From Chordicoccus furentiruminis (GTDB lineage Bacteria; Bacillota; Clostridia; Lachnospirales; Lachnospiraceae): 64,000 nucleotides of DNA. This document shows positions 9,842 to 21,662 of the stretch, in pieces. The notes under the pieces are model-generated. The model searched no databases and was not told where the DNA came from. It saw only the letters and a program-made list of their open reading frames with translations. The stretch is from positions 248,001 to 312,000 of the forward strand of contig NZ_CP048829.1 in assembly GCF_019355395.1 (NCBI RefSeq). The letters run 5' to 3'. A program made the translations under genes and the position numbers. Position 1 is the first letter of the stretch, and the number at the start of each line of letters is the position of its first letter.

Positions 9842-10644
9842 GAAAGAATCCTCCTGTCGGAACGGCCGGCTTCCCGGTGATAGGCCGCCCGCAGTTCATC
9901 CGCCTCGGCGGCCAGCAGGCCGGAGTCGGCCGTCTCCTCGGCCCCGGGAGGACCGGAAAGCGCTTCCGACGCCTCCCTGAGCGCCGCCTCCGCCGCGTCC
10001 TCCGGTACACCGCGCGTCTCCGCTTCCCAACGGAACCGTTCCGCCGGATAAGCGACAGCCAGTGCCAGCAGCCAGATCCGTCTGTCCGCCTCACGCCCTG
10101 TCAGTGCCCACGCGCGCTCAAAGTCCGCCAGTGCCTCCTCGTATTCGAGCAGCTGCATCGACGCGGCGCCGCAGTTGTGCCAGATCTTCGCCAGCAGCTC
10201 CGTTCCGTCCTTCGGAGCGGCTCCGGCCGCCTCCTGATACAGCGCGATCGCCTGGCCGAAACGTCTCCAGCCGGCGAGCGCATCCGCCTTCAGCAGGAGC
10301 CGTTCCGGCAAGGACGCCTTCTCCAGCTTCTCCAGCCTCTGAAAATAAGCGCGCATTTCCAGTGGTGTCAGATAATCCGCATCCACCAGAAGCGGGCCGA
10401 GATAGTCCGTCAGCGCTCCTCCGTTTTTCATGGCCCGCTCCATTCTGATCGCCGTGCCGGTCATCGCAAATTCCTCGACCAGCCAGCGGGTCAGCGCCTT
10501 TGACGTGATCGATTCGTCGATGAGAGCCGGCTGCTCTGTCACCAGCCAGCACAGCTCCTCCACGGACCGGAGATTCCGCGCCAGATCCGGAAGATAGTAG
10601 GGATGGCGGGCCGTTCCCGTCTTTGACAGCCGATATCCGGTCAT
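9838..10644 (-). CDS. TPR-like cytosolic protein of the polC-linked cassette
   Basis: About 268 residues, with no signal peptide or membrane helix. Its centre (residues about 100-215) reads as helix-turn-helix repeats of TPR type: ALAGWRRFGQAIALYQEAAG, then LLAKIWHNCGAASMQLLEYE and EALADFERAWAL. The N-terminal 90 residues are unlike anything I can name. The start at 10644 overlaps the stop of the upstream gene as ATGA, with GAAGGAGCG before it, indicating translational coupling to the actin/Hsp70-like protein. Such spacing usually means the two products work together. A client-binding or adaptor role is inference. The frame stays open to 10731, but a start there would invade the neighbour. 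Confidence 0.7.
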   Translation of the reverse strand: MTGYRLSKTGTARHPYYLPDLARNLRSVEELCWLVTEQPALIDESITSKALTRWLVEEFAMTGTAIRMERAMKNGGALTDYLGPLLVDADYLTPLEMRAYFQRLEKLEKASLPERLLLKADALAGWRRFGQAIALYQEAAGAAPKDGTELLAKIWHNCGAASMQLLEYEEALADFERAWALTGREADRRIWLLALAVAYPAERFRWEAETRGVPEDAAEAALREASEALSGPPGAEETADSGLLAAEADELRAAYHREAGRSDRRILS

Positions 10645-11933
10645 GTTGATGACGCTCCTTCCTTCGCCTTGAATGATGAGAATGCAAGCGGCACCGTATA
10701 GGTCCATCGCTTTCCGGAAGACGGGAACCATTCCCCGAAGCCCAGATCCGTCACCTCAAGGCGGGCCTCGTCCGTGCCAGTACAGGAGGCGGCCAGTCTG
10801 AGCCGCGTCGCACGGTTCGGCCTGTCCGGAAGGCCGTCCGGGAGATATCGTTCGTTCCGATGCTGGGTGCCGTCCATCGAGATGACCGTGACGACCAGAT
10901 CCTTCCTTCCGTCCGGGATGATCTCACAGACCGATTCGTTCTCGAACCAGTTGACGCCGGCCCGGATCAGCGGATACACCGTCTGCCCGCTGCCGTCGAT
11001 CAGATCGATGCAGAGGGAAGAGCGGACAATATCCGGTCCGAGATAGACGCGTCCGCGGAAAGCGTGGCGTTCGAGTCTCTCCAGCACGGTCCAGCAGGCC
11101 CCCTTGACAAAAAGGTTTCCTCCCTCGAATACCTTCGCGCCCCGGGCGCTGAGCGCGCGGACAGACCGTTTCGCCCAATCCTGACTGAATCCGTCTCCTG
11201 TGATGAAGATACCTGAAAGGCCTCCCGCACCGGTCCATCTGTCGACCGCCGCAGCGAAGGTCCCGTCCCTCCGGAGCGGATCCTGTTCAAGCGCAAGCCG
11301 TTCCGGCTCCGTGATCGTCACTGTGAACGGCTTCCGGCTCCGGTGTTCGTCCATCCGCTGGTATGTGACGGTATCGCCGCGAAACCGGATCAGCGCCATG
11401 CCGCGGACCGATATCTCCGGCTTCTGAGAATAGCCGTAATAGTAGAAGCTCTCAAGAGAATCCTGAACGAAGCAGCGCGCCGGGGGAAGCCCGAGTGCCG
11501 CCAGCGCGGAGCGGATTTCACTTGCGAGCCGTCCGGTCAGTTCCCCGGTCGTGACACAGATCCCGGCGATACAGCGTACCGGGTCCGTCACACCCAGCAG
11601 TTTCAGCGCCTCCCTGAAGAACGCAGCCAGCAGCTGTTCCGCCGTATACACTTTTCCGCCCACATCCGCACTGTCACCCCGTTTCAGGAGATCAAACAGG
11701 TCTGTGACCAGAGCGGCCTCCTTCCGTGAGGAAAAATACTCCGCTTCCCGCCCGAAGTACCATTCATCGGAACAGTTTTTTCTCGCGACGGCAGTAGGAA
11801 AGAAGAACAGATTCGTCCCGGTCCGTGTGGAAACGGACACCGGCTCCTTCCTCTTCCGGTCGTAGCACGTGATCTGAGACTCCTTCTCTCCGAGTTCAAA
11901 TCCGATCAGCAAATTCCGCACTTCATTCATCAT
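10641..11933 (-). CDS. Actin/Hsp70-fold protein (DUF5716-like, unknown function)
   Basis: A 430-residue soluble protein. The N-terminus LLIGFELGEKESQITCYD matches the phosphate-1 loop of the actin/Hsp70/sugar-kinase fold (as in GIDLGTT). Later, IFITGDGFSQDW and EGGNLFVKGACW correspond to the adenosine loop and the terminal helix (as in VGGSSR and PDEAVAKGAA of DnaK). The family, possibly the Clostridia-restricted DUF5716, has no known function that I can cite. It lies between the large solenoid protein (90 nt upstream) and the coupled TPR-like protein. I infer an ATP-dependent assembly or chaperone-like role; catalytic ability needs testing, since the phosphate-2 loop is not clear. Confidence 0.7.
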   Translation of the reverse strand: MMNEVRNLLIGFELGEKESQITCYDRKRKEPVSVSTRTGTNLFFFPTAVARKNCSDEWYFGREAEYFSSRKEAALVTDLFDLLKRGDSADVGGKVYTAEQLLAAFFREALKLLGVTDPVRCIAGICVTTGELTGRLASEIRSALAALGLPPARCFVQDSLESFYYYGYSQKPEISVRGMALIRFRGDTVTYQRMDEHRSRKPFTVTITEPERLALEQDPLRRDGTFAAAVDRWTGAGGLSGIFITGDGFSQDWAKRSVRALSARGAKVFEGGNLFVKGACWTVLERLERHAFRGRVYLGPDIVRSSLCIDLIDGSGQTVYPLIRAGVNWFENESVCEIIPDGRKDLVVTVISMDGTQHRNERYLPDGLPDRPNRATRLRLAASCTGTDEARLEVTDLGFGEWFPSSGKRWTYTVPLAFSSFKAKEGASST

Positions 11934-12023
11934 CCGCTCATCCCTTCTTCCGGTCCGACGTCCTCAGGCTTCCGTTATCCTGATCTTCAGTCCTGCCGCA
12001 CCGCCTCATCGTCCCCGGGCTCG

Positions 12024-15000
12024 TTATTCCGGCCGGAAGAGCCGCTCCGCCTGACGTCTCGCTCTCCTGAACGACAGAAGCTCCTTACGAAGCGCGTCCG
12101 TGTCTCCGTCCGCCTTCGCCTTCAGCATCCGGTTGATTCTCTGGTAGCAGCCCGTCCCCTGCAGATCCGACGCGGAGGATGTGACGGCGGTACGGGGTCC
12201 GTCCGTCTCTTCTCCCTCATGCGTGACAGTCAGATAATACTCCAGCGTCTCCCCGTAGAAAAGCGTGAATGTCCGCGAACAAATTCCCCGGAAAATCCGC
12301 TCACAGTTCTCTGTCTGCCAGGGCTCCTCTTCCTTTCCGCCGTCAGCGGACAGCCTGTAGTGAATCGTTACCCGGTCCGCCGGAGAAACCTTCTTCTCGA
12401 TGAAAATCCGGTCGCGGACAGGAAGCCCGCTCACAAACGAATCCGGAAGATCCTGATAGAAACGGAAAAACAGGCCGCGTGCCCGGCTCTCCTCCAGCAG
12501 GATTTCTGTCAGCTGTTTCTCCTCCGCTGTCAGCTCCTCCCTGTCGAGGCTGTACTTCTCGGATACAGCCCTGAGATACAGCAGCTTCACCGCGCCGTCC
12601 GTGATGTCTCCGGACCGCAGCTGGCTGCCCGCGAAGGATGCTGTCCACGGATCGATCCGTCCCGGCTCCCCGAGCATTGCATCCGCGTAAAATGCCAGAT
12701 AGCGGCGGGCAAGCGCCGCGTCCCCGCCGGCCCCGACATAAGTGCGAAGCACGGAAGGCCCCTCGGCGTCCGATGACTTCGTAAAAATCATCCGGGCCAG
12801 AATCCGTTCGTCCATCGACCGGGTGCCGGCGGAAAAGGCCGCGGCTTTCTCCCGGACGGCGAGCATCTCCTTCAGTCCGCCCCTGAAGTACAGCATCAGA
12901 TAATGCAGGATCTCCTCGTCGAAGCGGCCGCTTCGGAAAGCATAGACGGAAAGCTGAAGAAGCTCCTCATCCTCCCGGTCCTCCGCATTCCGGATGAGAT
13001 GCGAGGCCAGCTGCGCGATCAGCGCCGGATCCACCCGCTCGAATCCGTGAGACGCCAGCGCCCGTGCGGCGGACTGATACTGACCCCCGGCTGTCAGAAC
13101 ACGAACCAGCAGCGCAGGGTCAGCCTCCGCGTACCGTTCCAGCACAGACGGATCCGTCTCGTCCGTGAAGAACGAATTTTCCGGGTGCACAAGAATATAT
13201 CCGAGAATACGCCTCCGGACCTCCTCCCGGAACGCATCGCTCATCTCTTCTGATGCCTCGGCCCGTTTCCACATCCGGAACGCCTCGGCGTCAGCGATCT
13301 CCTTCCGCTCGAATTCCCGAATCCGGCTCACGATGATTCCCGGATCGGACGGACAGGACCGGACGCACATCTCGCGGAACCGGTCATCTTCCATCAGCCT
13401 TCCGCAGGCGTACGCTTTGGTCACCGCGTACCGGCGTCCTTCCCTGTCCTCGAGAAGAATCCGGGCATCCGGCGTGTACCACTCGATCCACGCGACGCCG
13501 TGCGAGAAGGGCACGGAGGTTTCTTTCGCCAGTTCCCGGTGGATGACAACCGCCGAGGTCACCGTGCGGTCATCGGTATACAGCCTGAATGTGAAGAGCA
13601 GCCTCGTCATCGTCGCGGCGGAAGCCTCGTCCGGCAGCCGTTCAATCAGCTCCTGATACAGCGCGGCGTAATTCACGGAAATCCTTCCCTGACGGAGTGA
13701 CGCGGCGGCGAAGGCTTCCATCGTGTCATGATAACGGCGGAAGGTCTCCGGATCATCCGCTCGGCTGCGGACAACGGCTGCATAGAGCGAAGCACGTCCC
13801 TCATCAGACAGCGTATTGTTGTAAGCAAAGTAACGGCGGATCACCGCCGGCAGGATGCCTGTGCTTTCGGGGGGCATCGACTCCACATAATATTCGTAGA
13901 GGCGGAGCACACGGATCTGCTTCGCGACAGCCCGTTCGTACCACGGAAAGCAGCGGCTGTCGCGGGGATCCCCCTTCATAAGAAGCCGGACGATCGCCTC
14001 GAGCACGCCGTCCAGCGGCATCCGGCGGTATCCTTCCGTCAGGACCCGGAATAAAAGGCCGTTGAACGTCTTCTCATGATCCGAAAGAAAGGCGGCGCGG
14101 AGAAGCAGGCCTTCCGTCAGCATTTCTCTGCGCGCCGCAAAGAGAAGTATCCGGAGCATGAACGGATCCAGCCTCTCCAGAAGATCCTCTTCCTGCTTAA
14201 GAACGGAGAAAGCCTGAGCATAAAGGAACGGGCTGCGGCAGCCGCTTACGAAGGCGTTCCGCGTGAGCTCAAGGATACGCCGCCCGGACCTCCAGAGATC
14301 CGGGGACGTCCGGACCATCAGGCGGAGCATCAGCCAGCTGTCCGGCCGGCGCGCGGCGCAGGACCGGACGCGGGAGGCAAACGCTTCCCGCTTCAGCTTC
14401 GCCAGTCCGGTGAAACCCTCCATATAGTCGATGGCCATCAGGATCTCTTCCGGCTCTCCTGCCTTTTCCCCCTCCGTCACCCCGCGGAGAACCGTCTGCG
14501 CGTCGGCATGTCGGCCTCCCGTCTCCAGAGCAAAGGACCAGAGAAGCTTCAGCGCCGCCGTGCGCTCCGGGCGGATCTGCCGCAGCCGGTCGATCGTCTC
14601 CTCAAGACGGTCCGCCAGAGCGGCATTGTCCGTCCGGCCGCAGCACCAGTCCGTCATCTCCCTGAAAAGCGTCAGTTCGAGACGATCCGCGGCCACCGCC
14701 GGATCCGCCTCGTCCTTTTTCATCGCCGTCGCGGTGACACGTACCTCAAACGTTCCCTGCGGCGCGCGAAAACGGATACGTCCGAAGCGCATTCCCGTTC
14801 CAAGACGGCTCCTGTCAATGAGAAAGGAGAAGATACACGTCCGCCCCACAAAGTCTTCATCCGTGAGCACGGATTTCGGAAGAGACAGAAAATCCCCCTC
14901 GGTTTCGGCCAGGATCAGCAGGCTTCCCCACGACGAACGGCGCAGCGTCACCTGCTCCATCACCGTCTCCTTTATCCGGTCATACCGCACCTCGGAGACA

Positions 15001-15542
15001 TCCGCCGTCACCGTCACCGGCTGCTTCAGTCCGGCCGCCAGCAGAAATTCCTCCATCGCCAGCATGGACGCGCCCGGAACGGCCAGCCCCCGGTGAAGGG
15101 CAAGGAGGGATGCGCGTTCCGGATCGTCCGCCGGAATCAGGTTCCCGAATCCCGGGCTCATGAACAGCCCGAACGCCTCCTCCGGTCCCTGTTCCGCCAG
15201 GGATGCGAACGAGGCGAGGTCCTTCGCCTCGCTTTCTCCGGTTCTCCTTTCCGCCCGGCGGATCCGGACGGCGACCGGAACCGACTGTTCCCCGGAATCC
15301 GTTACCACCAGCAGATGGCCGTTCACGGTATCCCCGTCACGAAGTCCCGTCACATCCACGCCGAAGCGAAGCCGCATTTTCCGTCCCGAAAACTGCTCGA
15401 GCTCCGGAATGATCCGCGCATGATCCGAGTAAAGCTCTCCCCGCACGCGGTCCGCATCCTCCGCCTCCAGATGAAGCGCAGACCGGATGCTCCGGCCCGG
15501 CTCCGTCTCCAGCCGGATCTCCGATTCCGTAATCTTTACCAT
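12024..15542 (-). CDS. Large beta-sandwich plus alpha-solenoid protein (DUF5717-like, unknown function)
   Basis: An 1172-residue protein without signal peptide or transmembrane segments. Residues about 1-270 form two beta-rich segments: one starting IRLETEPGRSIRSALHLEAE, a second around EQVTLRRSSWGSLLILAETE. Residues about 290-1000 are almost all amphipathic helices with irregular repeats, consistent with an alpha-solenoid. The last 150 residues are again beta-rich (RVTIHYRL, RTFTLFYGETLEYYLTVTHEGEET). The layout resembles the Lachnospiraceae DUF5717 family, from memory. The start at 15542 has GGAGAGGGAAG upstream; the frame is open to 15593. It follows polC by 47 nt and probably shares its transcript. 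A scaffold role is inference. Confidence 0.7.
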   Translation of the reverse strand: MVKITESEIRLETEPGRSIRSALHLEAEDADRVRGELYSDHARIIPELEQFSGRKMRLRFGVDVTGLRDGDTVNGHLLVVTDSGEQSVPVAVRIRRAERRTGESEAKDLASFASLAEQGPEEAFGLFMSPGFGNLIPADDPERASLLALHRGLAVPGASMLAMEEFLLAAGLKQPVTVTADVSEVRYDRIKETVMEQVTLRRSSWGSLLILAETEGDFLSLPKSVLTDEDFVGRTCIFSFLIDRSRLGTGMRFGRIRFRAPQGTFEVRVTATAMKKDEADPAVAADRLELTLFREMTDWCCGRTDNAALADRLEETIDRLRQIRPERTAALKLLWSFALETGGRHADAQTVLRGVTEGEKAGEPEEILMAIDYMEGFTGLAKLKREAFASRVRSCAARRPDSWLMLRLMVRTSPDLWRSGRRILELTRNAFVSGCRSPFLYAQAFSVLKQEEDLLERLDPFMLRILLFAARREMLTEGLLLRAAFLSDHEKTFNGLLFRVLTEGYRRMPLDGVLEAIVRLLMKGDPRDSRCFPWYERAVAKQIRVLRLYEYYVESMPPESTGILPAVIRRYFAYNNTLSDEGRASLYAAVVRSRADDPETFRRYHDTMEAFAAASLRQGRISVNYAALYQELIERLPDEASAATMTRLLFTFRLYTDDRTVTSAVVIHRELAKETSVPFSHGVAWIEWYTPDARILLEDREGRRYAVTKAYACGRLMEDDRFREMCVRSCPSDPGIIVSRIREFERKEIADAEAFRMWKRAEASEEMSDAFREEVRRRILGYILVHPENSFFTDETDPSVLERYAEADPALLVRVLTAGGQYQSAARALASHGFERVDPALIAQLASHLIRNAEDREDEELLQLSVYAFRSGRFDEEILHYLMLYFRGGLKEMLAVREKAAAFSAGTRSMDERILARMIFTKSSDAEGPSVLRTYVGAGGDAALARRYLAFYADAMLGEPGRIDPWTASFAGSQLRSGDITDGAVKLLYLRAVSEKYSLDREELTAEEKQLTEILLEESRARGLFFRFYQDLPDSFVSGLPVRDRIFIEKKVSPADRVTIHYRLSADGGKEEEPWQTENCERIFRGICSRTFTLFYGETLEYYLTVTHEGEETDGPRTAVTSSASDLQGTGCYQRINRMLKAKADGDTDALRKELLSFRRARRQAERLFRPE

Positions 15543-15589
15543 GTTGTCTTCCCTCTCCTCCGGCTGAAAACCTGATCCGGATCCGGCCG

Positions 15590-18500
15590 TCAAACAAGAT
15601 CAAACAGTGAGATCTGGTTGCTCTCCGGGATATCCTTCAGAACGCCCATCTCCTCCAGCAGATCGATGATCGTTTTCGATACCTTCGTGCGCTCCCGGAA
15701 GTCGTCCTTCGAAAGGAAGGGCCCCTTCTTCGTCTCCTCTTCCACGGCGATCGCCTGCGTGTCCCCGAGACCGCCCACCGAGTTCAGCGGAGGCATGATC
15801 TTTCCGTCGATGATGGAGCAGCGCGTCGCATGCGCACGGTACAGGTCGAGCCTGTGGAAGGAAAAGCCTCTGGCATACATTTCCCGCACAAGACGCATAT
15901 CATCGAGTTCTTCCTTCTCCTTCGCCGACGGATCGGCCTCCTTTTTGATCTGATCCGCGTAATAATCGAGCTTCTCCCGTCCCTGGCACATATGCTCGTA
16001 ATTGAACGTCTTCAGGCGGATCGAGAACATGGCGGCATAGTAGGCAAGCGGATAATTGATCTTGTAATAGGCGATGCGGAACGCGTTCATGACGTAAGCC
16101 GCCGCGTGCGCCTTCGGAAACATATATTTGATACGCTTGCAGGATTCGATGTACCAGTCCGGCACACCATGGTCACGCATCTCCTTCTCCTGCTCCGGGG
16201 AAAGCCCGCGGCCCTTCCGAACGGCTTCCATGATCTTGAAGCTGTGCTCCGGCTCGACGCCCCACTGAATGAGATTCAGCATGATATCATCACGGGTGCA
16301 GATCGCGGTGCCCAGCGTGCAATCTCCTCTCTCGATGAAATACTGCGCGTTGTCCAGCCAGACATCCGTCCCGTGGGAAAGACCGGAAATCCGGATCAGT
16401 TCCGAAAACGTTTTCGGCTTCGTCTCCCGCAGCATCCCCATGACGAAGCTGGTACCGAACTCCGGCACGCCCAGCGTCCCCAGATCGCACCCGTCAAGAT
16501 CCGCCTTCGTCACGCCGAGTGCCTCCGTTCCCTGAAAGAGGGAGAGAACGCCCTTGTCGTCCAGCGGCACATCATGGGGATCCGTTCCCGTCAGATCCTG
16601 CAGCATACGGATGATGGTCGGATCATCGTGTCCGAGAATATCCAGCTTCAGCAGGTTCGTGTCGATGGAATGATAATCGAAATGCGTCGTGATGAACGGT
16701 GAGTTCATGTCGTTGGCCGGGTGCTGAATCGGCGTGAACCAGTTGATGTCCATCCCCTTCGGGAGGACGATGACGCCGCCCGGGTGCTGGCCGGTCGTGC
16801 GTCGGACGCCGACGCAGCCCGCCGAGAGTCGTTCCAGCTCGCAGCTCTTCTTCGCCTCGCCCTTGTCCTCAAAATAATGCATCGCGTAACCGTAGGCCGT
16901 CTTGTCCGCCACCGTGCCGATCGTGCCCGCCTTGAAGGTCTGTCCCTTTCCGAAAATCACCTCCACGAACTGCTGCGCGACGCCCTGCTCGTCGCCGGAG
17001 AAATTCAGATCGATGTCCGGCTCCTTGTCTCCCTTGAAACCGAGGAAGGTCTCAAACGGGATATCGAAGCCGTCCTTGATCATCTTCGTCCCGCAGTGCG
17101 GACAGAACTTGTCCGGCATGTCGCATCCGCTCCGTCCCTCGGCGTGGGCGAGACGGGTTTCCTCCGAGTCGAATTCGCTGTACCGGCATTTCGGGCAGCG
17201 GTAGTGAGGCGGCAGCGGATTCACCTCCGTGATATGCGACATCGTCGCGACGAAGGAACTGCCCACCGACCCCCGGGAACCGACCAGATAGCCGTCATCG
17301 TTCGACTTCTTCACCAGCTTCTGCGCGATGATATACATCACCGCGTACCCGTTCCGGATGATGGAGCCGAGCTCCTTGTCCAGCCGCGACCGGACGAGTT
17401 CCGGTATCGGATCGCCGTACCACTCCCGGGCGGTCTCGTAGCACATCGCCTCCAGATCCTCCGCCGCGTGAGGAATCGACGGCGGACATTTGTACGGATA
17501 GATCGGCGACACATCCCCGATCTGTTCCGCGATCCGGTTGGTGTTCGTGATGACAACCTCCCGGCATTTTTCCTCCCCGAGATAGGAAAATTCAGCCAGC
17601 ATCTCCTCCGTCGTCCGGAGATAGAGCGGCGGCTGGCCGGACGCCTCCTCCGTGAAGCCGTGTCCGGCCTGAATGATCGACCGGTAGATCGCGTCCTCCG
17701 GATTCAGGAAGTGCACGTCACATGTGGCGCAGACCGGCTTGCGGAACTGGTCCCCGAGCCGGACGATCCGCCGGTTGATGTCACGGAGATCCTCCACCGA
17801 CCGGATCCCGCTCCTTGTCTCTCCGATCAGGTAGTTGTTGTTGCCTGTGGGCTGGATCTCAAGATAGTCGTAGTACCCGGTGATCCGGGCGATCTCCGCG
17901 TCCGAAGCGCCGCTTAAGATAGCCTGATACAGCTCGCCCGCCGAGCAGGCGCTCCCGAGAATCAGTCCCTCTCTGTGCGCGTTCAGAACGGAGCGCGGAA
18001 TCCGCGGCCTTGTCTTGAAATACTTCAGATGCGACTCCGAAACCAGCGTATAAAGGTTGCGCCGCCCGATCTCATTCTTCGCCAGCAGGATGATGTGGTA
18101 GTATTTCAGGTTCCGGATACGATCCACCGAGACAGCGCCCTTCGCATTGAGGTCTCCGAACGTGACGATGTTCTGGCTCTCCATCCCTTCGAGCAGCCGG
18201 AGATAGGCCATCGCCATACTCCTTGCCCGCGGGAACGCGCGCATCTCGTCCGTATTCGGCACCTTCAGATGGCGGATAAGCGTCCGGAACCGGATCTTGC
18301 CGAGTCCCGGGAGAAGGTAGCGGGCCACCGCGGGAATATCGATGAAAGTCCGGCCCGGTGGCTCGATTCCATACCGCTCGCAGGCGGCCAGGATAAAGTT
18401 CATGCCCTGATCCGCATCATAGGCGATCAGCGGCAGACTGCCGGCGAACTCCGCGAAAGCCCTCATCGCGTGTTCCAGATCCGGAGACGAAATCACCATA

Positions 18501-20071
18501 TTGTCGGTGATCCCCACCTCCGTCTGGATGGAGAACGGGATCGGCCGCCCGGGATTGACCAGCGTGGAAAACTCTTCCGTCAGCCGTCCGCCTTCGATCT
18601 TCTGTGCAGCAATCTCGATGATATCGTGCGTAAAAGGACTCTGACCGGTCGTCACGACATCGAACACGACACAGGGACCGTCGATTCTTCCCTCGACGGC
18701 GCCGCCGACCAGATTCTTCATGTCGTCGACCAGATAGCCCTCCATGCCGTAGATCACCTTGAGATCCGCGTCTTTCGGAATACCGCCCTTCCCTCCGAAG
18801 CACTTCTTTGCCTCCGGAAACGCCTGCACGACACCATGGTCGGTGATGGCGATCGCTTTCATGCCGAACCGGTAGGCCTGTTTGACGATGGAGGTCGCCG
18901 AGGCCACCGCGTCCATATCCGACATCTGCGTATGGCAGTGCAGCTCGACCCGCTTCACCGTCGCGTGATCTTCCCGTGCCTCGCGGAACGGCGGAATCCG
19001 GCGGATGCCGTACACGCTCTTGATCATCATCTCCCGGTCATAGGGGTCCAGATCCATCAGGCCCTTGATCACAAAACAGCTGCCCTTCCGGAAGGCCGAC
19101 TCGTATTCCGGGAGATCCTCCTTGTCAAACCACAACTTGAAACGGAGGCTGTCAGTGTAGTCTGTGACGGCAACCGTGAAAATGATGCGGCCGCTCCGTG
19201 TCTCCCGGCTCTCCGTCGCGAAAACTTCGCCCCGCACGGTCACTTCTCTCGGATCGTCTCCCAGTGAGCTGATCGGGTCGGGTTCGTCATCGAAGGCCCG
19301 TCCGTAGAGGACGGACGCATCCTTTGCCAGACTCTGGTGACGCCGGCTGTACTGCTTTTCCTCTTTCACAGGAAGCTTTTTCTCGACAGCCGCGCCGGCG
19401 TGACGCTTCTCGTTGCGTTCCATCACCTCGCGGATCTTCTCTTCGATCTGCAGGTCGTCCGCCTCCCTCGCGGATGCCGCCTTCTTCTCCGATACCTTTC
19501 CCAGCACTTCGACATTTTTGAAACCGGCGCGTTCGCAGAAAATCTTCTCCACGTAGGCAATCAGCCGGTCCTGCTCCCTCAGAAAGACGGCACTGTCCGG
19601 TACTGTGACCGTGACCGTCTGGAACGGGCTGCACCCGCCTTGCGGCTCAGTCTCTGCCTCCTCCGTGCTTTCCTTCCTTCCGGCCTCGTCCTCCGTCTCC
19701 CCGAACGTCAGTTCGGAATGCAGAAAGGCCTGCTCCAGCAGCGGGTCGACGTTCTTCAGCTCGGTCACCATGCTGGACCGGTACGCCTTGTAAAAATTGG
19801 ACGCGCTGTAGGATCCGGACAGCACAAAATGCTCGATGACCTTCACCTCCATGCGGCCCGCGTTTCCGAAGACCTGCGCGGAGATGGCATCCTCGAGCCG
19901 GTAGATATGCTGCTTCTTCAGCCAGTTTTCCGATACAATATAGATTTTGAGGCGATTCCTCGCATGATTGACCGTAATCCGCTCCACCTTCACATACTCG
20001 AGAAGAGCCCGGATCTTCGGATCGACATCAAGGCCAGGAAACGCCTCCAGAAATGGTTTTGCCTGATTCAT
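15590..20071 (-). CDS. polC: DNA polymerase III alpha subunit, PolC type, with degenerate proofreading exonuclease
   Basis: Replicative DNA polymerase of low-GC Gram-positives; 1493 residues. Order: N-terminal domains (1-250), OB fold (about 275-355), PHP domain (ELHCHTQMSD at 376), exonuclease domain inserted in PHP (about 467-630), PHP continuation (TCDVHFLNPED), zinc-binding knuckle (CPKC...CPHCG), palm with EPDIDLNFSGDEQ, then fingers. The polymerase appears intact. In the exonuclease, Exo I FDVETTG is FDVVTTG (Glu to Val473), the Exo II Asp is Gly556, and the Exo III His and Asp are Met610 and Arg615, leaving only Asp471. The frame is uninterrupted. It lies 12 nt downstream of ispG. Confidence 0.95.
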   Translation of the reverse strand: MNQAKPFLEAFPGLDVDPKIRALLEYVKVERITVNHARNRLKIYIVSENWLKKQHIYRLEDAISAQVFGNAGRMEVKVIEHFVLSGSYSASNFYKAYRSSMVTELKNVDPLLEQAFLHSELTFGETEDEAGRKESTEEAETEPQGGCSPFQTVTVTVPDSAVFLREQDRLIAYVEKIFCERAGFKNVEVLGKVSEKKAASAREADDLQIEEKIREVMERNEKRHAGAAVEKKLPVKEEKQYSRRHQSLAKDASVLYGRAFDDEPDPISSLGDDPREVTVRGEVFATESRETRSGRIIFTVAVTDYTDSLRFKLWFDKEDLPEYESAFRKGSCFVIKGLMDLDPYDREMMIKSVYGIRRIPPFREAREDHATVKRVELHCHTQMSDMDAVASATSIVKQAYRFGMKAIAITDHGVVQAFPEAKKCFGGKGGIPKDADLKVIYGMEGYLVDDMKNLVGGAVEGRIDGPCVVFDVVTTGQSPFTHDIIEIAAQKIEGGRLTEEFSTLVNPGRPIPFSIQTEVGITDNMVISSPDLEHAMRAFAEFAGSLPLIAYDADQGMNFILAACERYGIEPPGRTFIDIPAVARYLLPGLGKIRFRTLIRHLKVPNTDEMRAFPRARSMAMAYLRLLEGMESQNIVTFGDLNAKGAVSVDRIRNLKYYHIILLAKNEIGRRNLYTLVSESHLKYFKTRPRIPRSVLNAHREGLILGSACSAGELYQAILSGASDAEIARITGYYDYLEIQPTGNNNYLIGETRSGIRSVEDLRDINRRIVRLGDQFRKPVCATCDVHFLNPEDAIYRSIIQAGHGFTEEASGQPPLYLRTTEEMLAEFSYLGEEKCREVVITNTNRIAEQIGDVSPIYPYKCPPSIPHAAEDLEAMCYETAREWYGDPIPELVRSRLDKELGSIIRNGYAVMYIIAQKLVKKSNDDGYLVGSRGSVGSSFVATMSHITEVNPLPPHYRCPKCRYSEFDSEETRLAHAEGRSGCDMPDKFCPHCGTKMIKDGFDIPFETFLGFKGDKEPDIDLNFSGDEQGVAQQFVEVIFGKGQTFKAGTIGTVADKTAYGYAMHYFEDKGEAKKSCELERLSAGCVGVRRTTGQHPGGVIVLPKGMDINWFTPIQHPANDMNSPFITTHFDYHSIDTNLLKLDILGHDDPTIIRMLQDLTGTDPHDVPLDDKGVLSLFQGTEALGVTKADLDGCDLGTLGVPEFGTSFVMGMLRETKPKTFSELIRISGLSHGTDVWLDNAQYFIERGDCTLGTAICTRDDIMLNLIQWGVEPEHSFKIMEAVRKGRGLSPEQEKEMRDHGVPDWYIESCKRIKYMFPKAHAAAYVMNAFRIAYYKINYPLAYYAAMFSIRLKTFNYEHMCQGREKLDYYADQIKKEADPSAKEKEELDDMRLVREMYARGFSFHRLDLYRAHATRCSIIDGKIMPPLNSVGGLGDTQAIAVEEETKKGPFLSKDDFRERTKVSKTIIDLLEEMGVLKDIPESNQISLFDLV

Positions 20072-20083
20072 GAACCCTCACAG

Positions 20084-21157
20084 TCAGCTGAGACCGTCCG
20101 GACTGCTCACTCTCAGCAGCTCCTCCCGGAGCGCACCGAGCAGCTGATCCTCCGGCACTTTTCTGATGATCTCGCCATGGCGGATGAGCAGTCCCTCGTG
20201 CCTGCCGCCGGCAATGCCGAAATCCGCTTCTTTTGCCTCTCCCGGACCGTTCACCACGCAGCCCATCACGGCCACCTTCAGATCCAGCGGAATATCCTGC
20301 ACCATCTGCTCCACCTGATTCGCCAGCGTGATCAGATCGATCTCCGTCCGCCCGCAGGTCGGACAGGAAACCACCTCGATGCCGCCTCTCCGAAGTCCCA
20401 GTGACCGCAGAATCAGTTTAGCCGAGCGGACCTCTTCCAGTGGATCGCCTGTCAGAGAAACCCGGATCGTATCGCCGATTCCCTCGTGAAGCAGGATACC
20501 CAGCCCCACAGCCGACTTGACGTTGCCTGAGAAAACCGTCCCGGCCTCCGTGATGCCAACATGAAGCGGATAGGCCGTCTGCTCAGACATCAGCTCGTAG
20601 GCTTTGATACACATCAGTACATCCGACGACTTGATGCTGATGACCAGATTGTCGTAGTCAAAGTCCTCGATCATCCGCACCTTGTCGAGCGCGCTTTCCA
20701 CCAGTCCCTCGGCCGTCACGCGGCCGCCGTGGCGCCGGATCACGTCCTGCTCCAGCGAACCGGAATTTACGCCGACGCGGATCGGGATGTTCCGCATGCG
20801 GGCCGCGGCGACCACATCGCGGATATGCTCCGGGCCTCCGATGTTCCCCGGATTGATCCGGATCTTGTCCGCACCGTGCTCGATCGCCGCGATCGCGAGC
20901 TGATAATTGAAATGAATGTCCGCCACCAGCGGGATATGGATGCGCTTTTTGATCTGCTCCAGCGCCTCCGCCGCCTCTCTGGTCGGCACCGTGCAGCGCA
21001 CGATGTCGCAGCCCGCCTTCTCCAGGGCGATGATCTGCGCCGCCGTCGCATCCGCATCCTCTGTCTTTGTGTTCGTCATCGACTGGATCGCGATGGGATG
21101 GCCTCCGCCGATCACACGGCTGCCGATCCGGATCTCCTTCGTATGCTCCCGGTTCAT
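20084..21157 (-). CDS. ispG: 4-hydroxy-3-methylbut-2-en-1-yl diphosphate synthase
   Basis: Penultimate enzyme of the MEP isoprenoid pathway, reducing MEcPP to HMBPP with an oxygen-sensitive [4Fe-4S] cluster. The cluster cysteines are in SCPTCGRTEID and VMGCVVNGPGE. The N-terminal TIM-barrel start IRIGSRVIGGGHPIAIQSMT is typical. At 357 residues it is the short bacterial form without the plant insert. The ATG at 21157 has GGGAGGTG 5 nt upstream; the frame is open to 21205. It lies 13 nt after folA and 12 nt before polC, so it is inside one operon. Confidence 0.96.
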   Translation of the reverse strand: MNREHTKEIRIGSRVIGGGHPIAIQSMTNTKTEDADATAAQIIALEKAGCDIVRCTVPTREAAEALEQIKKRIHIPLVADIHFNYQLAIAAIEHGADKIRINPGNIGGPEHIRDVVAAARMRNIPIRVGVNSGSLEQDVIRRHGGRVTAEGLVESALDKVRMIEDFDYDNLVISIKSSDVLMCIKAYELMSEQTAYPLHVGITEAGTVFSGNVKSAVGLGILLHEGIGDTIRVSLTGDPLEEVRSAKLILRSLGLRRGGIEVVSCPTCGRTEIDLITLANQVEQMVQDIPLDLKVAVMGCVVNGPGEAKEADFGIAGGRHEGLLIRHGEIIRKVPEDQLLGALREELLRVSSPDGLS

Positions 21158-21170
21158 AAACACCTCCCGG

Positions 21171-21662
21171 TCATTTTCTGCGGTATGTATCAAACTCATA
21201 AACAAGATCGAAATACGTCAGTTCGTCCGTGGCGCGAACCTTCTCCCACTCCGGATCATGATCCAGGTCGGGGAGCCGCGTGTCCGCGTCATAGGCGAAA
21301 TCGATTTTCGTGATATACGCCGTATCGCAGTACGGAAGAAGGGAGCGGTAAACCTCGCCTCCGCCGATCACGAAGACGTCCCTCGTGTCATACCGGGCGG
21401 CCGCGTTCAGCGCTTCCTCCACAGAATGGACCACAGTGGCGCCCTCCGCCTGATAATCCATCTGTCTCGTGATGACGATATTCTCCGCCCGGTTCCGGAG
21501 CGGTTTTTTCTTCGGAAAGGACTCAAGCGTCTTTCGTCCCATAATCACCACTTTTCCCGTCGTCATCTGACGGAAATACGCCATATCCTGCGGAATCGAA
21601 ACCAGCAGCTTTCCGTTTCTGCCGATGGCCCAGTTCCTGTCCACCGCTGCAATCAGATTCAT
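21171..21662 (-). CDS. folA: Dihydrofolate reductase
   Basis: Reduces dihydrofolate to tetrahydrofolate with NADPH, regenerating the cofactor oxidised by the thymidylate synthase encoded just upstream. It begins MNLIAAVDRNWAIGRNGKL, has the NADPH-binding VVIMGRKTLESFP and the family motif VFVIGGGEVYRSLL. The 163-residue length is standard for the chromosomal type. thyA ends 20 nt upstream; thyA-folA pairing is common because the two reactions are linked. Confidence 0.96.
   Translation of the reverse strand: MNLIAAVDRNWAIGRNGKLLVSIPQDMAYFRQMTTGKVVIMGRKTLESFPKKKPLRNRAENIVITRQMDYQAEGATVVHSVEEALNAAARYDTRDVFVIGGGEVYRSLLPYCDTAYITKIDFAYDADTRLPDLDHDPEWEKVRATDELTYFDLVYEFDTYRRK

Follow-up and report, generated by a model that had tools for sequence, protein, structure and literature searches.

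The window, by which we mean the whole stretch of 64,000 nucleotides analysed here (Chordicoccus furentiruminis, NCBI RefSeq assembly GCF_019355395.1, contig NZ_CP048829.1, positions 248,001 to 312,000 of the forward strand), contains polC, the gene of the PolC-type DNA polymerase III alpha subunit (positions 15590-20071, minus strand, as are all parts of polC given below). It is a single open frame of 1493 aa with no internal stop. The DnaQ-like exonuclease domain inserted in the PHP domain of this polymerase (residues about 458-640; 18152-18700; PF00929, 44 bits) has lost its DEDDh site and, judged by sequence, is almost certainly catalytically dead. Taking the explanation as a whole, we think it rather probable that this PolC is native, works as the replicative polymerase and belongs to a Lachnospiraceae genus whose DnaQ-like domain became a pseudo-exonuclease on the stem of the genus, with proofreading passing to the PHP nuclease site and the dead domain being kept as a structural part.

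Loss of the DEDDh exonuclease site

A search for PolC across genus, family and order covered 117 genomes and was positive in 112, of which 42 belonged to the same genus (the window's own included) and 70 to others; 67 of these 70 were fetched and read. Of the 42 same-genus genomes, 39 have an exonuclease domain that is fully or partly readable, and in the other three it is off the contig. Named relatives, among them RUG11216, RUG11217, UBA1066, UBA2860 and UBA3689, are metagenome-assembled genomes of gut and, presumably, rumen Lachnospiraceae.

At the five catalytic columns of the alignment with these relatives the window PolC reads D, V, G, M, R (DVGMR). Motif I, canonically D-x-E, is reduced to D471-V472-V473 (18653-18661) within FDVVTTG (470-476). 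The motif II Asp is replaced by G556 (18404-18406) in AYDADQG (550-556), and the His and Asp of motif III by M610 and R615 (18227-18244) in EMRAFPR (609-615). The original prediction, which had been made from the window alone, had placed all three motifs at these residues and had named the changes E to V473, D to G556, H to M610 and D to R615, with D471 as the sole survivor; the alignment confirmed this, since the same columns read D-E-D-H-D in 66 of the 67 PolCs from other genera, the remaining one, L115, having no exonuclease domain. An intact DEDHD was found in none of the 39 readable same-genus genomes. E473 was kept in none of them (V, L or T instead) and neither was D615 (R, Q, K or L instead); D471 was kept in two rows, D556 in one and H610 in four.

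An exonuclease-null PolC of Enterococcus faecium was made by D431A and E433A, that is by changing the Asp and Glu of motif I alone (PMC12592400). We judge the DEDDh exonuclease of the window PolC almost certainly inactive, and the claim of an apparently dead proofreading exonuclease was borne out. A shift of intact catalytic residues to another part of the domain, the finding that would have overturned this claim, was looked for at the sequence level and rejected: acidic or His positions conserved in the genus are H482, D483, E486, E518, D523, D552, D554 and D578, and none of them restores the D-x-E of motif I.

The genus formed one clade in a tree of PolC cores (34 of 34 rows, support 99), so a single, genus-wide loss on its stem is the simplest reading of the sequences. 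PolC without an exonuclease is already known. A retained but dead exonuclease in PolC contradicts a 2026 survey (PMC12926913), and a literature search, which mostly did not extend to subscription journals and bioRxiv, found no description of one.

The dead domain is predicted to fold and is under selection

The domain measured 198-217 aa in all 36 same-genus domains aligned, a set that stands apart from L046 (258 aa) and the truncated L044. Scanned alone, the dead domain matched PF00929 with 48 bits. An AlphaFold model with the same-genus alignment as input reached a pLDDT of 93.6, and its best PDB match in Foldseek was the PolC structure 9qpc (TMq 0.91, rmsd 1.4). The surrounding fold, which had been called intact from the letters, is thus modelled as a normal exonuclease fold.

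Nei-Gojobori dN/dS in the four closest same-genus pairs was 0.08, 0.08, 0.06 and 0.14 for the exonuclease domain and 0.011, 0.023, 0.014 and 0.040 for the polymerase core; four less close pairs gave 0.09-0.27 for the exonuclease domain, at dS above 1 and therefore too saturated to trust. At a core identity of 0.75-0.80 the exonuclease domain was 0.44 identical within the genus, as against 0.60 in family members with an intact exonuclease. The second part of the PHP domain showed 0.69 and 0.70 in the same comparison, from which it follows that the relaxation is local to the exonuclease domain. Of the positions nearly invariant in other genera (L057 left out), the genus has lost 7 of 26 in the exonuclease domain and 1 of 126 in the polymerase core (H1033). 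The dead domain evolves faster than its counterparts in exonuclease-intact relatives, but the low dN/dS (0.06-0.14) of the closest pairs indicates that it does not do so neutrally and is still under purifying selection.

The PHP nuclease site

The insertion divides the PHP domain into a first part (18722-18946; PF02811) with the metal ligands H378, H380, D387, H412 and E444 and a second part (17672-18121) with H659, C709, D785 and H787, all of them intact. In DnaE1 of Mycobacterium tuberculosis nine such ligands form a trinuclear zinc proofreading site (PMC5636811). The nine ligands (HHDHEHCDH, pattern HHDHEH[C/H]DH) were complete in all 37 same-genus PolC rows that cover them. They were also complete in 28 of 28 same-genus DnaE1 rows covering them, the window's genome included, as read in the best-scoring loci; one further row was cut. 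The 2026 survey takes these ligands to indicate that a PHP site is active and credits most Clostridia with three active sites, PHP in PolC, PHP in DnaE1 and DnaQ in PolC (PMC12926913). By its sequences, the genus has lost the third.

Beyond the genus, the PHP site was complete in all 130 PolCs counted that had lost the exonuclease (33 same-genus and 97 others; 94 of 94 in the tree set, one truncated row being left out, and 36 of 36 in a phylum set), and likewise in seven uncounted rows of this kind (L046, L048, L049, L050, L115, L301 and L307). Among 116 distinct PolCs with an intact exonuclease, in which the PolC of G616 (L369 = L407) counts once, it deviated in four, strongly in L057 and L103 and by one Asp-to-Asn change in L415 and L416. 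Fisher's test of PHP state against exonuclease state gave p = 0.048, on rows that are related and come from a set partly chosen by hand. This pattern of conservation is consistent with a takeover by the PHP site, not proof of it.

L057 (G045), which lies nearest to the genus in the PolC tree, had the reverse state, a broken PHP site (HHEFDSSDK) and an intact exonuclease; its position is less sure because its branch is long.

A model for proofreading in the genus

Under the takeover that we favour, PolC would excise misincorporated 3' ends at its own zinc-dependent PHP nuclease site, and the stretch made by DnaE1 would be proofread by DnaE1's own PHP site. The dead domain would persist because the PHP fold incorporates it. 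It might also serve as a wall or DNA-binding surface guiding the primer end. The point at which DnaQ is inserted in PolC corresponds to a loop that in M. tuberculosis DnaE1 borders the groove leading to the PHP site (PMC5636811), so that, by analogy, the dead domain may now act as that wall.

Several points weigh against this model. The PHP site was complete in 112 of the 116 PolCs with an intact exonuclease too, and because it is so widely kept its retention after exonuclease loss says little by itself. The PolC of Geobacillus kaustophilus, in which one of the nine ligands is changed, had no PHP nuclease activity (PMC5636811), and we found no published report of such activity in a PolC. In Escherichia coli, where the PHP site is damaged, the domain has been credited with a structural role (PMC3666897).

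Alternative explanations

In a first alternative, which we regard as fairly unlikely, the PolC of the genus would not proofread at all, and fidelity would come from base selection and mismatch repair. In its favour, MutS matches occur in 40 and MutL matches in 37 of the 42 genomes of the genus, and the window's genome has both. On the stem of the genus, moreover, the PolC core underwent more change than DnaE or IspG. The core distance to order-level outgroups was 1.52 for the genus and 1.14 for other genera of the family, and the divergence between genus and family exceeded the mean within-group divergence by about 75% in PolC, 44% in DnaE and 30% in IspG. One change near the palm, H1033Q (16973-16975), lies 12 residues after its D-x-D and is fixed in the genus (Q in 39 of 39 readable PolCs); the residue is His in most other PolCs read (143 of 145 in the tree set), while the phylum set has an occasional Q, F or L. 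These changes may be compensatory. Their concentration in PolC fits compensation for the loss, or adaptation to a new arrangement, and does not tell which. The absence of proofreading fits poorly, however, with the perfect conservation of the PHP ligands in all 37 same-genus PolC rows. In Bacillus subtilis, moreover, the loss of PolC proofreading together with mismatch repair raised mutation about 6000-fold, and the highest mutation rates are reported to be counter-selected (PMC11890065). The distance of IspG to the order outgroups was 1.41 for the genus and 1.37 for other family genera; being nearly equal, these values give no sign of a long-term mutator, although a single gene makes for a weak test, and in the midpoint-rooted IspG tree the genus was not recovered as a clade.

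The original prediction had offered this absence of proofreading as one arm of a strict choice, the other being a DnaQ-like protein acting in trans. As an either/or the choice did not hold, since it omitted the PHP nuclease site. The search that it proposed, for a stand-alone DEDDh exonuclease or a DnaE, returned one DnaE1 and, besides PolC, four RNase_T proteins over the Pfam cut-off in the window's genome: L006, L007 (193 aa), and L008 and L010, which are related to each other. These four are the material for proofreading of PolC in trans by a stand-alone DEDDh exonuclease, which seems to us unlikely. L010 is weakly KapD-like (NF005838, 47 bits against a cut-off of 169) and, judged from lengths and profile ranges, occurs in roughly 35 of the 42 same-genus genomes. 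Its kind is not particular to the genus, however: G044 has a 45% identical copy and weaker ones occur further out. L006 is a fusion of Cas2e and a DEDDh domain beside cas1e, and the other RNase_T proteins are patchy, no more than about seven of the 42 genomes having one of 190-260 aa. Thus among the 42 genomes no PF00929 protein was both common in the genus and particular to it, exonucleases outside PF00929 lying beyond this search; the trans arm was left with no such candidate. A conserved old protein could nevertheless have taken over the task.

The cas1e gene and the fusion gene L006 follow each other at about 1835058-1838522 of G000:C1, next to an apparent CRISPR array judged from a repeated translation only. 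A protein 39% identical to L006 occurs in G013.

It also appears quite improbable that DnaE1 does the bulk of synthesis with its own PHP proofreading and that PolC is left with a minor role in which fidelity matters little. DnaE1 has its full length and a complete set of nine PHP ligands, and on the genus stem the PolC core diverged more than DnaE. Yet the mean identity of the PolC core among 33 members is 0.81, its dN/dS in close pairs is 0.01-0.05, and the clamp motif and catalytic Asps were retained; by these measures PolC is a strongly constrained replicase. An artefact of sequencing or assembly, or a second, non-essential polC copy, is practically negligible and was rejected, because the frame is open throughout as first claimed, the one-contig genome has one polC, which lies in its usual place beside ispG, and the same lost state recurs in 39 genomes.

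Exonuclease loss in other lineages

A DNA-level search of 391 genomes of the class for the D-x-E-T-T-G pattern gave no match in 78. PolC was present in 63 of these 78, and 60 were fetched. Six complete and two partial domains among them still have the catalytic residues, within motifs of variant sequence. Of the other PolCs, 39 have no exonuclease domain (one with a rest of 34 residues), five have dead or unrecognisable full-size inserts, six have a remnant roughly 116-131 residues long, and two are truncated. A further 31 genomes were chosen by hand, all pattern-positive except G116; their 30 loci comprised eight without the domain, five with the insert of family f66, sixteen intact and one masked at motif III. 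A pattern match need not lie in polC: the window's own genome was positive through another gene and several exonuclease-less genomes were positive as well. For this reason the number of clades with a loss is a lower bound.

On a FastTree tree of 179 PolC cores the trait changed at least nine times between intact and lost. This tree leaves out 20 of 199 rows, some because they cover under 700 core residues and nine by manual choice; L047, on a truncated same-genus contig, was kept and scored as absent. Among the rows left out is L115 (G109, same order), which would add a loss, as the insertion is cleanly absent and the PHP site complete, with L085 and L106 of its family keeping an intact exonuclease. 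Family f49 is likewise divided, one genus being dead (L282, RNase_T still 34 bits) and two others intact (L341 and L342). In a draw from the phylum PolC was found in 106 of 139 genomes, and 68 were read besides the window's own (29 best-scoring loci and 39 chosen by hand, many for a short match), of which 32 had an intact exonuclease and 36 did not.

All nine PolCs fetched from family f66 carried a degenerate insert. That of genus g132 had no Pfam match in the two of nine scanned (L402, too, gave no RNase_T match), and a profile comparison with the alignment of the window's genus gave 8% probability. Its model was of low confidence (pLDDT 59.1), yet its top structural matches were DnaQ-like exonucleases (E 3e-4), so that DnaQ ancestry is likely but not firm.

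Two observations stand beside these. In one genus outside the window's family (L303-L306 and L344-L348) the PolC insert is 292-344 aa long, has many invariant positions and gave no Pfam match in the two scanned; it is perhaps a domain with a new job. G020:C230 and G045:C57 hold a second PolC-like gene, 35-43% identical, which includes an RNase_T domain and may come from a phage.

Intact, dead but folded, degenerate, remnant and absent domains could form a natural decay series. In a wider form of our model proofreading would have returned from the inserted magnesium-dependent DnaQ domain to the zinc-dependent PHP nuclease, genus-wide here and independently in several lineages of Clostridia, with the dead domain a temporary scaffold; for this wider form we see the chances as evenly balanced. 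These PolCs matter because in the species with PolC that have been studied the PHP site is masked by the DnaQ domain or damaged, while the genus and the exonuclease-less lineages are natural experiments. There the PHP site is the only recognised nuclease site in PolC with its residues intact, and PHP proofreading in PolC is therefore directly testable. The genus also corrects the published generalisation that it is the PHP site, not the DnaQ site, that is lost in replicative alpha subunits, and it warns that an RNase_T match in a PolC does not guarantee proofreading by that domain.

The gene and its surroundings

PolC of the window scored above the cut-offs of the curated equivalog models NF001688 (1581 bits, cut-off 873) and TIGR01405 (1447, cut-off 1043). 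Its domains follow the order N-terminal domain, OB, PHP with the inserted exonuclease, Pol3 and HhH. The polymerase core (palm, thumb and fingers; 16142-17458) has its three catalytic Asps intact (D1019, D1021 and D1144), and a clamp-binding motif, QISLF (residues 1486-1490; 15602-15616), lies at the C-terminus. The window's genome, a single contig of 3.27 Mb that is 98% complete, has one polC, and all its other matches to C-family polymerases fall in one dnaE.

The next gene upstream is ispG (GcpE; 20084-21205, minus strand), followed by those for dihydrofolate reductase and thymidylate synthase. Since ispG adjoins polC in 74 of the 110 loci searched, polC is in its usual genomic place. Directly downstream (10641-15593) are genes for two uncharacterised proteins, one with DUF5717 (1189 aa) and one with DUF5716.

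Comparison with known systems

With PolCs that have an intact DnaQ domain (the B. subtilis and E. faecium type, and the Clostridia with PolC and DnaE1) the window PolC shares the domain order, the catalytic Asps, the clamp motif and the exonuclease fold; it differs in the lost DEDDh site. The exonuclease-less PolCs of Clostridia and Negativicutes make up 6% of PolC (PMC3919608). Like them, to judge by the residues, the window PolC should lack DEDDh activity and has a complete PHP site, but in those proteins the insertion is absent, whereas here it is full-size, predicted to be folded and under selection, which sets the window PolC outside that group. PolA2/APEX and Pol I with an inactive 3'-5' exonuclease also retain an inactive DnaQ-like domain (PMC12926913); unlike the window PolC they are A-family polymerases with a DEDDy site and are not the replicase. 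M. tuberculosis DnaE1, which proofreads by its PHP domain, has the nine-ligand site in common with the window PolC and, by analogy, perhaps the proposed way of working (PMC5636811); it is a DnaE, not a PolC, and no DnaQ domain is inserted in its PHP domain.

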